A stretch of DNA of 64,000 nucleotides from Kordia aestuariivivens (lineage in GTDB: Bacteria; Bacteroidota; Bacteroidia; Flavobacteriales; Flavobacteriaceae): the NCBI RefSeq assembly GCF_014397005.1, contig NZ_JACGWS010000001.1, forward strand, positions 496,001 through 560,000. The letters are read 5' to 3'. A program made the position numbers and the translations under genes. The notes below the pieces were generated by a model. It saw only the letters and a list, made by a program, of their open reading frames with translations, was not told the origin of the DNA and did no database searches. Positions 8,867-15,667 of the stretch are shown here, piece after piece; positions within the stretch are counted from its first letter, which is position 1, and each line of letters starts with the position of its first letter.

Positions 8867-9302
8867 TCGAGATAAATTGATTTAAAAAAATAAAAATAAG
8901 TGTATTTCATTACATAATAACAACGCGAACTTAAAAAACCAATCTTTTTAGCAAAGGTTTATCATATTCATAACGAAACGCTGCTTTTTTCATAAAAACG
9001 GCAAAAATGTGCTTTACTATCAAAGCATTATAAAACTTGGACAAATTTACTTTGATACTGATTCTTTTTCAAAATTTTTAATGATTTAAAAAATACAGCT
9101 ACAAAAGAAATCCTTAAAGCTTTCTATATATACTGTTAACGCCGTTTCAGTTTTTGTGATGGTTTTAACAGATATATGACTGAATCGTTAAAGAAGTGTT
9201 ATAATAGAAAAAAGCTTGCAACAATTTTTGCTGACTGTCGTCTCTTAAGAGTAATCAAATTACAAAAATCAACAATCATCAATTCAAAAAACAACAAACA
9301 TT
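8867..9302. other. Intergenic region between divergent gpmI and the ankyrin gene
   Basis: These 436 bp hold no gene I can support. The gpmI promoter lies at 9042-9072. The stretch 9176-9361 is open in one frame but starts inside AT-rich leader DNA and overlaps the ankyrin gene out of frame, so it is not called. No hairpin with a T-run or riboswitch-like fold was recognised. Confidence 0.5.
9042..9072 (-). promoter_or_regulatory. Promoter for gpmI
   Basis: The minus strand shows TTG at 9072-9070, 20 bp, then TAAATTTG at 9049-9042. This is a full match to the Bacteroidota consensus. The expected transcription start is near 9037. Confidence 0.55.
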
Positions 9303-9695
9303 ATGAAAAAAACAATTTTTATGATTGCTCTTATAGTAGGAGCTTCATTCACTACGGCTAACGCAACAGAAGGAAACAACGAAACTGCAACATCAAACGA
9401 AGTAACTGTAACAACAGTGGTAAAAGTAAATCCATTTTGTATTGCAATTGCAAAAGGAGATTTTGATACCGTTAAAAAAATGATCCAATTCGGAGAAAAT
9501 GTAAACAAAACATCCAATGGAAAAACACCATTAATGTATGCAGCACGTTACAACAGAGTTGAAATTGCTTCATTATTATTGAAAAATGGTGCAAAATTAG
9601 ATTCTAAAGATAAAAATGGACATACAGCTATTGATTATGCAAAATTATCAAAAGCACTAGACGTTAAAAAAGTATTGGTGGAAGCATCAAAGTAA
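9303..9695 (+). CDS. Secreted ankyrin-repeat protein
   Basis: This 130-residue protein has a classical signal peptide (MKKTIFMIALIVGASFTTANA, cleavage after about residue 21). After a Thr/Val-rich linker come about three ankyrin repeats (residues 42-128), with the motifs GKTPLMYAARYNRVEIASLL and the GHTAIDYA helix-turn-helix. Small exported ankyrin proteins are common in Flavobacteriaceae and probably bind periplasmic partners; no partner is visible here. It stands alone with a strong hairpin terminator 22 bp after the stop. The next gene is on the other strand. Confidence 0.88.
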   Translation: MKKTIFMIALIVGASFTTANATEGNNETATSNEVTVTTVVKVNPFCIAIAKGDFDTVKKMIQFGENVNKTSNGKTPLMYAARYNRVEIASLLLKNGAKLDSKDKNGHTAIDYAKLSKALDVKKVLVEASK

Positions 9696-9716
9696 AAAGC
9701 TAGATTACCTAATGTG

Positions 9717-9746
9717 AAAAGCCGTTTCTGTGAAGAAACGGCTTTT
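9717..9746 (+). terminator. Strong, probably bidirectional terminator
   Basis: A perfect 13-bp stem, AAAAGCCGTTTCT (9717-9729) with AGAAACGGCTTTT (9734-9746), closes a GTGA loop. The flanking A-run and T-run allow it to end both the ankyrin gene (+) and the RiPP precursor gene (-). Confidence 0.85.
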
Positions 9747-9776
9747 CTTGTATTTAAACTTTTAATAGAAAGTAAA

Positions 9777-9938
9777 TTAATCAGGCCATTTCTGACACAC
9801 ATTCCCGCCATAGCATATTGTGATTCGTACTGTTGGTTCTGGACATAGATTCGTGCGCATTCCGCCTGTTACTTCGGTTGCAATCAACGTACTAATTTGT
9901 TTTTTGTTTAACTGTAAATGACTCGTCTTTTTTTTCAT
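9777..9938 (-). CDS. GG-leader RiPP precursor (class I lanthipeptide-like)
   Basis: A 53-residue ORF runs from ATG 9938 to TAA 9777, below the usual length cut-off for gene callers. Its N-terminal half reads MKKKTSHLQLNKKQISTLI, then ATEVTGG. This matches the Bacteroidota natural-product leader (K-rich start, LxLNKxxIxxL, ending in a double glycine), which is cut by C39-type ABC transporters. The core after GG is 27 residues with three cysteines, four threonines and no serine, so lanthionine rings are chemically possible. No LanB, LanC, radical-SAM or exporter gene lies in the window, making this an orphan precursor. A perfect palindrome lies 69 bp upstream (10007-10022) and a strong terminator downstream. 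The family call is by motif only. Confidence 0.7.
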   Translation of the reverse strand: MKKKTSHLQLNKKQISTLIATEVTGGMRTNLCPEPTVRITICYGGNVCQKWPD

Positions 9939-10006
9939 GGTTTTGATATATTAAGTTAATAACAATCAGCAATATAGAGATAAAAAGAGAAGAAGCGTTA
10001 CTGTTT

Positions 10007-10022
10007 TACCATCATGATGGTA
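10007..10022. promoter_or_regulatory. Perfect 16-bp palindrome upstream of the RiPP precursor
   Basis: TACCATCA followed by its exact inverse TGATGGTA forms an operator-like site. It sits 69 bp upstream of the precursor start and about 117 bp downstream of the M48 gene stop. A dimeric regulator could bind it; no regulator gene is adjacent. Confidence 0.35.
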
Positions 10023-10138
10023 TTGTTGGAAACACAATATTGAGAATTGAGTAGTAATATGTTAGATTATATGAGTCAAGAAAAAAGAGTATAGAACCAA
10101 GAAAAAATAGTCAAGAGCAAAAGGCTAACAGCTAACAG

Positions 10139-10900
10139 TTACTGTCTATATTCAGCAATCGCTTCTTTAATTCTTTGGATTCTATTTTCAGGATCGGGAT
10201 GTGTGCTTTGAAATTCTGGAACTCTATTTGGACCTGCGGCAGATTTTAAAATTTTCATCACTTCAATCATTGCTTCTGGTTCATACCCTGAATTTATCAT
10301 CAATAAAACGCCAAGTTCGTCGCTTTCCAATTCGTCTTCACGACCATTTTTTAATAAGGTATTTTGTGCGTAGCCGCCAACCATGTTTCCCATATCAGCA
10401 CCAACAGAAGCGCCCGTGGAAATTGTTTGCCAAAAATCGGTTTCTGCAATGCGTTCCGCAGAATGTCTACCCAAAACATGTCCAATTTCATGACCTAAAA
10501 CACCAGCTAACTGATCATCATCAAGTTTGCTATACAATGCATTAGTGATAAAAATTTGTCCGCCAGGCAATGCAAACGCATTAATAGCTCTATTGTCGGC
10601 AAGTAAATGAAATTCAAATTTATAATCAGATTGTTTCGCCATGCTCATCTCAACCAATCTTTCGCCAATCATATCTACACGTGCTTGTGCGCCCGCATCA
10701 GGATACAATCCGCCGTGTTGTTGCGCCATTGCATCACGATTGGCAAAACCAAGTTGAATTTCTTGGTCAGTAGTCATATTGATGGTCTGCACACGATTTG
10801 TATATGGATTTGTTTCTTGGCTTGCACATTTCTTAAAAAAAGCAAAACCGACAATAGCGAGTCCAATCAACAAACGAATTTTTAATCTATTTCCTCTCAT
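10139..10900 (-). CDS. M48-family zinc metallopeptidase, membrane-anchored
   Basis: This 253-residue protein has an N-terminal hydrophobic segment (about 8-22) ending in FFKKCAS, which could be a lipobox or a membrane anchor. The catalytic HEIGHVLGRH (about 137) supplies the two zinc His and the catalytic Glu; EDELESDELGV (about 185) supplies the third ligand. These periplasmic proteases resemble BepA/LoiP, which do quality control of outer-membrane proteins. It ends in STHPDPENRIQRI, another typical M48 feature. It follows the M15 gene by 39 bp in the same direction, so the PD40, M15 and M48 genes probably form one transcript. Confidence 0.9.
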   Translation of the reverse strand: MRGNRLKIRLLIGLAIVGFAFFKKCASQETNPYTNRVQTINMTTDQEIQLGFANRDAMAQQHGGLYPDAGAQARVDMIGERLVEMSMAKQSDYKFEFHLLADNRAINAFALPGGQIFITNALYSKLDDDQLAGVLGHEIGHVLGRHSAERIAETDFWQTISTGASVGADMGNMVGGYAQNTLLKNGREDELESDELGVLLMINSGYEPEAMIEVMKILKSAAGPNRVPEFQSTHPDPENRIQRIKEAIAEYRQ

Positions 10901-10939
10901 AATAAGTTGCTTAGATGCTTATAAAAGTACAAAACCTTC

Positions 10940-11668
10940 CTATAAAAGCTCCGGGTTGATATCCAGAATGTTTTCTTTTATGTATGAATTGATAAAGTTT
11001 TCGTTGAAATGCTCACTTCCCATTAATTTTTCAGCTTGCAACATTTCTTTGATATTTAATTTCTGATATTCTTGCAACATCGGTTTGGATAATGGCGCAT
11101 AACTATAATGCCAAGGTTCATATTTAAAACCTTTCCGATCCGCTTTATCTGTATACACAATGTAGAAATCATACGTGTTTGCGTTCGTTTCTAGCCATTC
11201 GCGAAGTTTGCAAAATGGTCCGTCGCCGTGAAACTTTTTAGGAATCAATACATCACCACTATAACTAGTATTTTTATCAATAATATCAATATCGGTTGCC
11301 CAATGATGTCTGGAAGTTCCCGGAATGGTAGAATATGCTATAATTTTTTCAATTGCTTTTATAGGCGATAAACCTTGCTGTGTAAACCGTTTGTACTTTC
11401 GTTCCCAAATTCGGTTTTGATGTGCATAATTTCGATAGCTTGAAACTACATGAATTTCAATTCCGTCTTTAGCTGCGGCGGAAGACATTTTTACAAATGC
11501 ATCATACGCTTCTTTTCGTAACGAAAATCCTTTACCAAAAACCATTGGTTTTCCTTTTCCGATAAGTTCCAATGTCGTCGAATTTTGGGTGTTAAATGCC
11601 ATACTCGGTAAACTATGCAAGGCAACAGTTCCGAGTCCGAGAAGCTTAATAAAATTTGATCTATTCAA
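10940..11668 (-). CDS. M15-family D-Ala-D-Ala carboxypeptidase-like peptidase
   Basis: This exported 242-residue protein (signal peptide about 1-24, ending SMAFN) has the LAS-peptidase signature. SRHHWATDIDI (about 125) has the His and Asp zinc ligands, and EPWHYSY (about 192) has the catalytic/third-ligand WH motif. Such enzymes trim peptidoglycan stem peptides in the periplasm. The signal reads MNRSNFIKLL, which resembles a Tat motif but has RS instead of RR, so Sec export is more likely. The gene overlaps the upstream PD40 gene by 8 bp, which implies translational coupling. Confidence 0.88.
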   Translation of the reverse strand: MNRSNFIKLLGLGTVALHSLPSMAFNTQNSTTLELIGKGKPMVFGKGFSLRKEAYDAFVKMSSAAAKDGIEIHVVSSYRNYAHQNRIWERKYKRFTQQGLSPIKAIEKIIAYSTIPGTSRHHWATDIDIIDKNTSYSGDVLIPKKFHGDGPFCKLREWLETNANTYDFYIVYTDKADRKGFKYEPWHYSYAPLSKPMLQEYQKLNIKEMLQAEKLMGSEHFNENFINSYIKENILDINPELL

Positions 11669-13754: not shown

Positions 13755-13786
13755 AAAAATATTAGGAAAAGGTGTTAGTATTTTTT

Positions 13787-13794
13787 TATATTTG
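13787..13794 (+). promoter_or_regulatory. -7 promoter box for tRNA-Gly
   Basis: TATATTTG matches TAnnTTTG exactly and ends 10 bp before the tRNA. This places transcription start a few bases upstream of the mature 5' end. A TTG -33 box is not obvious. Confidence 0.55.
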
Positions 13795-13804
13795 CACCCG
13801 CAAT

Positions 13805-13877
13805 GCGAAAGTAGCTCAGTTGGTAGAGCGTCAGCCTTCCAAGCTGAATGTCGCCGGTTCGAACCCGGTCTTTCGCT
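13805..13877 (+). tRNA. tRNA-Gly (anticodon TCC)
   Basis: These 73 nt form a full cloverleaf. The acceptor stem is GCGAAAG/CTTTCGC, with a GCTC D-stem, anticodon stem TCAGC/GCTGA with loop CTTCCAA (anticodon TCC at 13838-13840), and a T-arm with the GGTTCGAACC core. The discriminator base is U (T at 13877) and CCA is not encoded. It stands alone rather than in a tRNA cluster. Confidence 0.95.
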
Positions 13878-13928
13878 CTTCAAAAGCCGATTCAAATGAG
13901 TCGGCTTTTTTTATTAGTGAAAACTCAG

Positions 13929-13958
13929 TTTTAAGAAGTCTGCAAGACGCACTTAAAA
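13929..13958 (+). repeat. Structured hairpin repeat, copy 2
   Basis: TTTTAAG, AA, GTCT, GCA, AGAC, GCA, CTTAAAA: two nested stems with a triloop. It is nearly identical to copy 3, 87 bp downstream. Confidence 0.7.
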
Positions 13959-13973
13959 TTGTAAGTTGAACTA

Positions 13974-13993
13974 ATCCCGCTGAAAAGCGGGAT
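13974..13993 (+). repeat. ATCYCG-type tetraloop hairpin repeat, copy 1
   Basis: ATCCCGCT-GAAA-AGCGGGAT is a perfect 8-bp stem with a GAAA tetraloop, between structured repeat copies 2 and 3. Relatives with covarying stems lie at 21185-21204 and 21236-21255. Confidence 0.7.
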
Positions 13994-14015
13994 CTCATGT
14001 TGATATGAAATCTAG

Positions 14016-14045
14016 TTTTAAGAAGTCTGCAAGACGAACTTACAA
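14016..14045 (+). repeat. Structured hairpin repeat, copy 3
   Basis: It has the same nested stems as copy 2, with one mismatch in the outer stem (CTTACAA). It abuts the 3' end of the pepE gene. Confidence 0.65.
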
Positions 14046-14047
14046 TT

Positions 14048-14752
14048 TTATAGAAATACAACTTCCGAACCCGTTTCTAGTTCATACGGTGTTTTTTCAT
14101 ATTCAAAGATTCTTGCGGTCAGTGGACCTTCAAGCGTATTTTTATCGCCAATGACACGAATCCAGCTTCCTTCTCTAATTCCAACAACGGGAAGTGTATT
14201 AAACTTATGAAACTCTTTAATTCTAGTTTCGCGCGTTTCGCCCATGTGTTTGCTGCCTTCTATCGGATCTAAATAATGAGGATTTATATTAAAAGGAACA
14301 ACGCCCAAGGTTTTAAAACTTGGTGGATAAATGATTGGCATATCATTCGTCGTTTGCATCGTAAGTCCACAAATATTACTTCCTGCACTTGTACCTAAAT
14401 AGGGCGTTCCATCCAAAATTGCTTCTCGTAATGGTTGCATGACTTTATGTTTGTATAATTGAGAAACTAACAAAAACGTATTTCCTCCGCCTGTAAAAAT
14501 ACCTTTTGCATTGGCAATGGCTTCTACAGGATTTTTAAATTCATGAATCCCGCGAACCGTTTTTCCAATCTTTTCAAAAGCTTTGGCAGCCGCAGCAGTA
14601 TATTCGTCATGTGTAATTCCGCCAGGGCGTGCATAGGGAAGAAATAAAATTTCTTCCGTATCTTTATAGAACGAAGTAAGTTCGTCAAGTAAATAGACTA
14701 AGTAACCACTTCCGTGGACGGTTGAAGTACTGGCAATAATTATATTTTTCAT
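14048..14752 (-). CDS. pepE: Dipeptidase E (S51 alpha-aspartyl dipeptidase)
   Basis: It hydrolyses N-terminal Asp-Xaa dipeptides in the cytoplasm. The 234-residue protein carries GIFTGGGNTFLLVSQL (about 84-99) and the nucleophile elbow YLGTSAGSNI with the catalytic Ser (about residue 122). GVVPFNINPHYLDP follows, with the His of the triad, as in the Salmonella enzyme. It is full length with the ATG at 14752. It stands alone on the minus strand between the repeat cluster and a divergent gene. Confidence 0.93.
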   Translation of the reverse strand: MKNIIIASTSTVHGSGYLVYLLDELTSFYKDTEEILFLPYARPGGITHDEYTAAAAKAFEKIGKTVRGIHEFKNPVEAIANAKGIFTGGGNTFLLVSQLYKHKVMQPLREAILDGTPYLGTSAGSNICGLTMQTTNDMPIIYPPSFKTLGVVPFNINPHYLDPIEGSKHMGETRETRIKEFHKFNTLPVVGIREGSWIRVIGDKNTLEGPLTARIFEYEKTPYELETGSEVVFL

Positions 14753-14905
14753 GATGCTTCCGAGCTAATTTTTACTGAAATGTAAAAGTAATGATTAAAT
14801 GGATTTAACAAAAGTTTAATGTACGTTGGGATTTTTTTAAGGACAATTGTTCATTTATTTATGCCGTATTTACAACCACACTATTTAACCAACAATACCA
14901 AACCT

Positions 14906-15667
14906 ATGAAACAACAATTACTCATATTCTGTCTTTTTATTTCGACACTACTGCTTGCGCAAGATAGCGAACGTAAAATTTTACGTGGCGCAGTAATTTA
15001 CAGAAACGTCAATGTTGTTGGAGTAAATATTGTAAATAATACCACAAGTAAAGGAACTACCACGAATCAGAAAGGTGAATTTGAAATTCTTGTGAAGAAA
15101 GATGATATTTTAGTTTTTTCTTCTGTGCAATACACCATTAGGGAAATTGTAATTACGGATAAAATTATCAAGAATAATCGCTTGGTTGTTGAGGTTAATG
15201 AAAAAATTGAAGAATTAGATGAAGTTGTCATTAGTCCAGAAAATAAAGATAAGTTTTTAGATTTTCAAGAAGAACAAATCGAAAAGTATAAAGATTATCA
15301 ATTTGCTTCTGACCGCTACTCACAAGTGAAAAATGAGGCATTAGGACAAACAAACTTTCAAGGAGCGAACGTTTTAGGACTTGTTGGAATGTTACTAAAT
15401 TCTATTATTGGAAAAGGTAAAAAGAAAGAAAAAGAAAAGGCTATTTACGAGCGTACGAGTTTTAATGAAGTCCGTTATCGCTATAAAGATGAATTTTTCA
15501 CAGATAATTTAAGTATCCCTAAAGATAAAATAAGTGCGTTTTTATATTATTGCGATGATCAAATGCCTTCAGAAGATATTTTTACGAATAAAAACGAATT
15601 TTTAATGATCGATTTTATGGTGAAGCAAAGCAAAAACTTTCTAGAATCTATCAAAAAGAAAGACTAA
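14906..15667 (+). CDS. Secreted CarboxypepD-regulatory-like domain protein
   Basis: This 253-residue protein starts at ATG 14906, giving a signal peptide (MKQQLLIFCLFISTLLLAQ). The frame is open to 14819 but that extension ruins the signal. After it comes a CarboxypepD_reg-like beta-sandwich (about 25-105): ILRGAVIYRNVNVVGVNIVN, TNQKGEFEILVKKDDILVFSSVQY, then the usual LDEVVISP close. This is the N-terminal domain of TonB-dependent receptors and OM anchors, but no barrel follows. The remaining 140 residues are charged, with a short hydrophobic segment (about 164-176). Probably periplasmic or outer-membrane associated; function unknown. Confidence 0.8.
   Translation: MKQQLLIFCLFISTLLLAQDSERKILRGAVIYRNVNVVGVNIVNNTTSKGTTTNQKGEFEILVKKDDILVFSSVQYTIREIVITDKIIKNNRLVVEVNEKIEELDEVVISPENKDKFLDFQEEQIEKYKDYQFASDRYSQVKNEALGQTNFQGANVLGLVGMLLNSIIGKGKKKEKEKAIYERTSFNEVRYRYKDEFFTDNLSIPKDKISAFLYYCDDQMPSEDIFTNKNEFLMIDFMVKQSKNFLESIKKKD

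Follow-up and report, generated by a model that had tools for sequence, protein, structure and literature searches.

The stretch of DNA analysed here, which we call the window, covers 64,000 nucleotides of a Kordia genome (C1:496001-560000, in an assembly of 5.46 Mb and 46 contigs). It contains a short gene on the minus strand whose product reads as the precursor of a secreted peptide. The features of this locus, in coordinates of the window, are as follows:

9303..9695, plus strand: ankyrin-like neighbour, a synteny marker, with a homolog beside the precursor in 11/11 loci
9716..9747, no strand: terminator-like hairpin with a perfect 14-bp stem between two convergent genes, seen in 10/11 ortholog loci
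9777..9938, minus strand: putative precursor gene, 53 aa (ORF call; orthologs in 11/11 Kordia genomes; dN/dS)
9777-9779, minus strand: stop codon of the precursor gene
9780-9860, minus strand: core of the precursor, 27 aa
9861-9938, minus strand: leader of the precursor, 26 aa, LxLxKx5L ... GG
9968..10030, minus strand: promoter region conserved in 11 orthologs (alignment; ortholog promoter model 59.2 bits)
9970-9976, minus strand: -7-like box TATATTG, within the conserved promoter region
9995..10021, minus strand: putative diverged operator copy, GATGGTAAAACAGTA in place of TACGGTnnnnCCGTA (best PWM position, 11/11 orthologs)
10007..10022, no strand: perfect 16-bp palindrome TACCATCATGATGGTA, perfect in the window species alone
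10139..10900, minus strand: M48-like metallopeptidase neighbour, a synteny marker, with a homolog within 1.5 kb in 9/11 loci

The names of the two neighbours are our own assumption: we take the first to be ankyrin-like from the look of its repeats, and the second is presumably M48-like from the look of its HExxH.

A preliminary description of the sequence had picked out a 53-residue ORF with a 27-residue core containing Cys and Thr, and this is what is found: the leader, MKKKTSHLQLNKKQISTLIATEVTGG, carries the LxLxKx5L motif in the stretch LQLNKKQISTL and ends in GG, while the core, MRTNLCPEPTVRITICYGGNVCQKWPD, holds 3 Cys and 3 Thr. An upstream frame that absorbed the ORF would have undone this reading, and there is none, as the open frame around it is 57 aa and no longer frame swallows it. 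The absence of a homologous leader from related genomes would also have counted against it, and here a protein search recovers one clear ortholog per genome in all 11 Kordia genomes, the window genome included (best E-values 1.8e-33 to 2.6e-13), the ten others being 60-69% identical to the window peptide and every one of the 11 keeping both the LxLxKx5L pattern and the GG at the leader end. The terminator that had been proposed is matched by a terminator-like hairpin, which is convergent with the ankyrin gene and can be recognised by eye in all but one of the ortholog loci. Rfam gave no match on 9000-11000.

The ortholog consensus is MKKK...LxLxKKx[IV]SxL......GG ... [ST]xxCPxxT[IV]x[IV]TxCYGxxxCQKWP, and the pooled Nei-Gojobori dN/dS over the 11 orthologs is 0.18 overall and 0.08 for CP..KWP, values that are approximate because synonymous sites are near saturation (pS 0.60-0.69). 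Every core has exactly three Cys, each of which can be paired with an upstream Ser/Thr in all 11 orthologs; three Ser/Thr positions are conserved, with a total of three Ser/Thr in nine cores, four in one and five in one. The position three residues ahead of the first Cys holds T in 7 orthologs and S in 4, while -1 and -2 are variable, and an invariant Ser/Thr at that place is the pattern that a dehydratable ring partner would show. Judged from its sequence, the ORF at 9777-9938 is a real gene and no chance frame.

A model of the core, at E<=0.01, matched 38 of 397 genomes of the family, three of which are Kordia (E<=3.9e-16) and the other 35 of which score no better than E 3.8e-4. Core homologs outside Kordia were considered and rejected, as the three of the 35 non-Kordia matches that were inspected proved to be a conserved non-coding repeat and no peptides. 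This non-coding stretch, ACCATAACATAAGTAGGTTAAGTT.ATGGTAGATTTGGGGC, lies beside terminator-like repeats at about position 1500 of the loci L221, L222 and L223 from three genomes of the family, occurs twice in L222 and in L223, and contains no tRNA and no Rfam match.

The ORF has no match in Pfam. Comparison with precursor HMMs, which the preliminary description had proposed as a check, gave a partial answer: the NCBIfam model NF038153 (lant_leader_L1a) does match, but at 15.6 bits against a cut-off of 22 bits. The LanB-adjacent precursor MKKQHSKLRL..., discussed below, has no NF038153 match at E<=0.1, so the cut-off overlooks genuine cluster members. At E<=0.0014 the same model finds 10 to 32 matches in each of the 11 Kordia genomes and none in 14 control genomes, and in the window genome, where 150 of 235 candidates were scored, it marks at least 147 places at E<=10, none of them the window ORF.

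An array profile was trained on the leaders of ORFs in the fetched stretches, with a threshold of 15 bits. It retains 181 distinct ORFs (2 of 183 fell under 15 bits and were excluded), one of them of the MLK type described below, while none of 8279 reversed and none of 8279 shuffled frames reaches the threshold. Two of the 147 places (C12:89283 and C12:93064) stand outside the array count, as do the weak or partial C1:294889, C23:110301, C43:217347, C45:7481 and C45:148610. The array precursors are spread over 22 of the 46 contigs, and with nine further precursors of the same leader found through promoter matches, the array comes to about 190 genes, about 180 by leader and 9 by promoter. The word "orphan", which the preliminary description had used, is thus valid for the neighbourhood of the window gene alone, as it is one of about 190 like genes genome-wide; the gene is unlinked to enzymes, yet no orphan. 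Two adjoining precursors at L011/L016 (C23:312.6-313 kb) have cores built of repeated CPxxT/CPI-type units.

In a relative, G002, the same search yields 98 precursors at 15 bits or more (87 places, with one partial, 3623482, left out). Between the window genome and G002 there are 54 reciprocal-best core pairs, 44 of them above 49, the highest score of a null in which shuffled cores were compared with every third G002 core, a maximum that is somewhat low. From these comparisons, roughly three quarters of the window genome's precursors appear to lack a clear G002 counterpart, both lists being incomplete. The window pair ranks 33rd of the 54 by core score, so its conservation is not exceptional among shared cores.

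That the window itself holds no LanB, LanC or C39 gene had been stated beforehand, and profile searches over the genome place no match to any of the three inside the 64 kb; the motif CxxxCxxC is missing from all 48 window ORFs that reach 150 aa, which is a motif check only and no radical-SAM search. The genome-wide search that had been called for does find one LanB, four LanC-like proteins and C39-ABC transporters. The LanB (PF04738) is the only one in the genome, as it is in each of the 11 Kordia genomes, and is 87-91% identical to eight Kordia records, the next being from Lacinutrix at 67% (its own record was possibly omitted). It lies on contig C16 in the order LanC-LanB-LanB(elimination)-HlyD-C39, with LanC upstream of LanB and the PF14028 elimination protein downstream, and the cluster also holds five precursors and two TPR-HTH_18 proteins along with HlyD and the C39-ABC transporter. 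The LanC has the motifs WCYG and CHG, presumably zinc ligands, and the C39 protein has DCGPTCL, which we take to include the catalytic Cys. The window precursor, on C1, is not adjacent to LanB or LanC, an adjacency that is usual in mined clusters and no chemical requirement.

Precursors with this leader type lie beside LanB at all 8 named Kordia LanB loci and at the window genome's own. A leader profile built from 15 of the 20 precursors listed beside LanB in other Kordia genomes scores the window orthologs at 17-25 bits, compared with -0.7 for the LanM precursor, -2.3 for the C1-C39 precursor and at most 0.4 for six MLK-type peptides. The background of 930 ORFs still includes true precursors read from upstream starts, and the 12 high scorers shown from it are such precursors or further precursor-like ORFs. 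Maturation elsewhere or by shared enzymes, one of the options originally offered, is therefore the favoured one, given that the C16 LanB/LanC/C39 cluster has precursors of its own with the same kind of leader, and the lanthipeptide-like RiPP reading is supported both by this leader homology and by the genome's LanB, LanC-like and C39-ABC proteins.

Two C39-ABC transporters are present in the genome, one inside the LanB cluster and one on C1, about 10 kb past the window end. Near the enzyme sets, ORFs that fit the leader profile are found in the LanB cluster and, once (23.6 bits), within the 18 kb surrounding the C1 transporter, so C16 is not the sole possible exporter. Just past the window end, at L143:6810-13749 (C1:560001-578000), there is a separate GG-peptide system with a precursor of a different leader, MSKLSFEALQQRADEVV...GG, together with an Rce1-like protease, an amidohydrolase-like protein, C39-ABC and HlyD.

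The 11 ortholog promoters have in common approximately AACACTACC..n..GATGGTAAAACAGTAA and a TAnnTT box. A genome-wide scan with a model of these promoters, in which 150 of 10681 candidates were scored, put the window gene's own promoter first and the promoter of a precursor on C46 second (E 3.2e-5); of the nine best non-self matches with loci, two are ahead of precursors and seven are not. These matches revealed the palindrome TAnGG-N5-CCGTA, and many array precursors share a palindromic operator of consensus GTTAAnTAnGG-N5-CCGTAA about 55 bp before the start codon. Its strict form, GG-N5-CCGTA, is upstream of 28 of 181 precursors, at 51-71 bp from the start codon in 26 of the 28, compared with none of 181 upstream regions of other ORFs (a number that equals the precursors by coincidence) and 0.28 per shuffled set. 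An operator PWM assigns 47 of the 181, some with a CCGAAAAC variant. A regulon model built from 26 sites, for which 150 of 9866 candidates across the genome were scored, finds at least 105 matches at E<=1; 29 of the 30 loci inspected lie 63-72 bp upstream of the start of a GG-leader peptide, and 12 of the 13 top matches not used in training precede GG-leader peptide genes. In G002 the strict form is much less frequent, being upstream of 6 of 96 precursors.

The window gene's own copy, which ends 22 bp ahead of the -7-like box, is degenerate, scoring 12.6 bits with a PWM that includes its own site and 7.9 with one that does not. Even without its own site, the PWM ranks the orthologous site, at -80 to -83, above every other position in the 200 bp upstream for all 11 orthologs, the shuffle p being 0.000 to 0.057 for each (the orthologs are not independent). 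On this sequence evidence the gene is likely a member of the operator group, with a membership weaker than that of strict members because its site is missing from the E<=1 matches of the regulon model (150 of 9866 candidates scored). The upstream palindrome to which the preliminary description had drawn attention is exact and lies 68 bp ahead of the start codon, but it is not the conserved element: only one of the 11 orthologs has it in perfect form, and perfect 16-bp palindromes occur four times in the window where shuffles give 2.55, so that it is unremarkable in itself and is ruled out as a regulatory site. What remains of that proposal is that the palindrome overlaps the shared operator, whose diverged copy is kept in 11 orthologs. 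A further candidate, AAAC[AT]GTA within 300 bp upstream, was found at 9 of 183 precursors, mostly at scattered distances. Reading this element as private to the window gene was wrong, since the ortholog promoter model showed CCGTA to be its common form.

A second short GG-leader type, MLKxI..L.....L.K..Q..I.GG, also contains Cys and carries the same operator as the LxLxK precursors; its loci in the window genome are L090, L101, L121, L147, L163, L166, L239 and L255, and such peptides make up four of the 29 operator-preceded GG-leader loci. A variant element ending in GCCGAAAACC and placed closer to the start codon (about -60 to -68 from its start) is seen at L008/L134, L119, L152, L160, L113 and L100 and is perhaps a second operator type. 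The operator was not found upstream of the sigma, TPR, LanC, AraC-type and C39-ABC genes or of the five LanB-adjacent precursors, the best PWM score among the upstream regions of enzymes, regulators and LanB-adjacent precursors being 8.7 bits, at -195 of one precursor; the LanB, LanC and C39 genes are all without it. Two TPR plus HTH_18 (AraC-type) proteins lie between LanB-cluster precursors (L038:11620-13386 and 13764-15656), and they are candidate regulators, despite having no copy of the operator ahead of their own genes.

The cores of the array were examined as a set, 2 of the 181 being dropped for want of a recognisable leader end, which left 179, of which 178 have Cys. In 169 of these 178, every Cys can be paired with an upstream Ser/Thr of its own, against 38 when the cores are reversed and 79 +/- 6 when they are shuffled. 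Ser/Thr are over-represented at distances of 3 to 6 and 10 residues ahead of Cys and under-represented at 4 to 8 and 10 residues behind it; they are also enriched 2 and 3 after Cys (z 5.2 and 2.0), and not enriched 1, 2 and 7 before. The signature is uneven, and Cys-poor core starts could explain part of the asymmetry, because the shuffle ignores position along the core. Cys counts are odd in 88 cores and even in 90, with no even bias. By their sequences the array cores look like lanthipeptides. An unmodified GG-leader peptide, a bacteriocin or signal that a C39 protein cuts and exports with its Cys free or in disulfides, would find two C39-ABC transporters in this genome and an operator that also serves MLK-type GG peptides with a leader unlike the LanB type; nevertheless we think it unlikely, as it leaves unaccounted for the odd Cys number of all 11 orthologous cores, the Ser/Thr kept at -3 of the first Cys, the array-wide asymmetry of Ser/Thr before Cys without an even-Cys bias, and the likeness of the leader to those beside LanB.

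It is also possible, if a little less probable still, that the peptide is modified by another set of enzymes: the LanM (DUF4135 plus LanC), the APH-HopA1-LanC trio, which we take to be akin to the enzymes of class V lanthipeptides, an isolated LanC, or an enzyme of the radical-SAM or YcaO kind that was not searched for. The genome offers such sets, since of its four LanC-like proteins one is within LanM, one beside the APH and HopA1 proteins and one on C17, and it has a C39-VKOR protein as well; in the available part of the TrRiPP survey (PMC11118758), Kordia is described as rich in lanthipeptides and rSAM-modified peptides. The window leader, however, is of the LxLxKx5L kind without a Pfam match, whereas the LanM sits beside a precursor of its own with a different, unrelated leader, and no leader-profile ORF is listed in the 12-kb stretches at the LanM, the class V-like trio, the C17 LanC and the C39-VKOR protein. 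The trio itself occupies L144:2953-6350 (C44:58000-70000) as APH-like, HopA1-like and LanC-like proteins in a row. As for a chance ORF without function, the shortness of the ORF and the absence of a curated family match above cut-off are all that speak for it, and 11 orthologs of 11, the dN/dS of 0.18 (0.08 in CP..KWP) and the conserved promoter and terminator leave it scarcely credible.

With good though incomplete confidence, and on sequence evidence alone, we thus read the window gene as one of an array of about 190 genes, and its product as the precursor of a secreted peptide of class I lanthipeptide type, matured in trans. The conservation, the leader class, the machinery with its single LanB, the array and the operator are observed; the steps that follow are inferred, and their chemistry, expression and function are untested. 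The LxLxKx5L leader would dock on the single split LanB (the PF04738 and PF14028 proteins of C16), which would dehydrate Ser/Thr of the core; LanC would close (methyl)lanthionine rings, three at most and one of them of the [S/T]xxC kind; and the C39 peptidase-ABC transporter and HlyD of the C16 cluster would cut after GG and export the core. One regulator may act on many loci through the operator 22 bp upstream of the -7 box, which 28 (strict) or about 47 (PWM) of the 181 precursors examined carry. Against this reading stand the lack of enzyme linkage, the unmet NF038153 cut-off, the enzyme genes without the operator and the absence of any experiment.

Parts of this picture are already published. 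In the part of Walker et al. 2020 (PMC7268733) available to us, Bacteroidetes class I LanA leaders are given with LxLxKx5L and GG and linked to C39, and the window gene resembles them in leader motif, GG end, Cys and Ser/Thr core, and genomic C39 and LanB/LanC; it differs from them and from NF038153 in being unlinked to enzymes, in scoring below the cut-off and in sharing one LanB with about 190 precursors. The richness of Kordia in RiPPs is not new either: PMC11118758, as far as it was accessible, gives counts of as many as 176 RiPP precursors for Bacteroidota genomes and names Kordia as an example, and the accessible portions of PMC7477175 and PMC10734526 mention a K. antarctica lanthipeptide cluster and Kordia RiPP clusters. 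In PMC11118758, its supplements excluded, we found no single-LanB accounting, shared operator or genus-conserved unlinked member, and neither the operator nor an array this large with a single LanB turned up in the literature searched, which excluded most subscription journals. The closest parallel is with ProcM and SyncM, where, according to the portion of PMC10783134 consulted, one enzyme serves many scattered substrates (29 to 83 precursors per strain). The Kordia array is like the prochlorosins and synechococsins in having one enzyme set for many precursors, which lie dispersed, alone or in tandem, and combine similar GG leaders with varied cores, but the prochlorosins use a class II LanM and Nif11-type leaders, whereas Kordia has a class I split LanB, about 190 precursors and a shared promoter operator of which that account, in the same portion, does not speak. 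By this analogy we would regard the array as working like the prochlorosin system without being a member of it, and as its class I counterpart.

More tentatively, and with rather less confidence than we attach to the reading of the window gene given above, we propose that Kordia has a class I trans-acting combinatorial system, in which one LanB/LanC/C39 set serves about 190 unlinked, fast-turning precursors, many with an operator that is absent from the enzyme genes, and in which the window peptide is a genus-core member with a diverged operator, perhaps a fixed signal for which the system is tuned. Its genus-wide constrained core and diverged operator copy suggest a fixed role, as a signal or a peptide with a defined target. 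If one LanB does handle about 190 diverse cores, Kordia would possess a naturally promiscuous pathway to class I lanthipeptides, which could serve in making peptide libraries and would be a clean case for asking why a bacterium maintains a large number of cheap peptide variants. The operator gives a sequence handle on precursor genes that are distant from their enzymes and leads to an unknown regulator, while the window peptide, recognisable in all of the Kordia genomes studied, offers a defined product for probing the purpose of the system.
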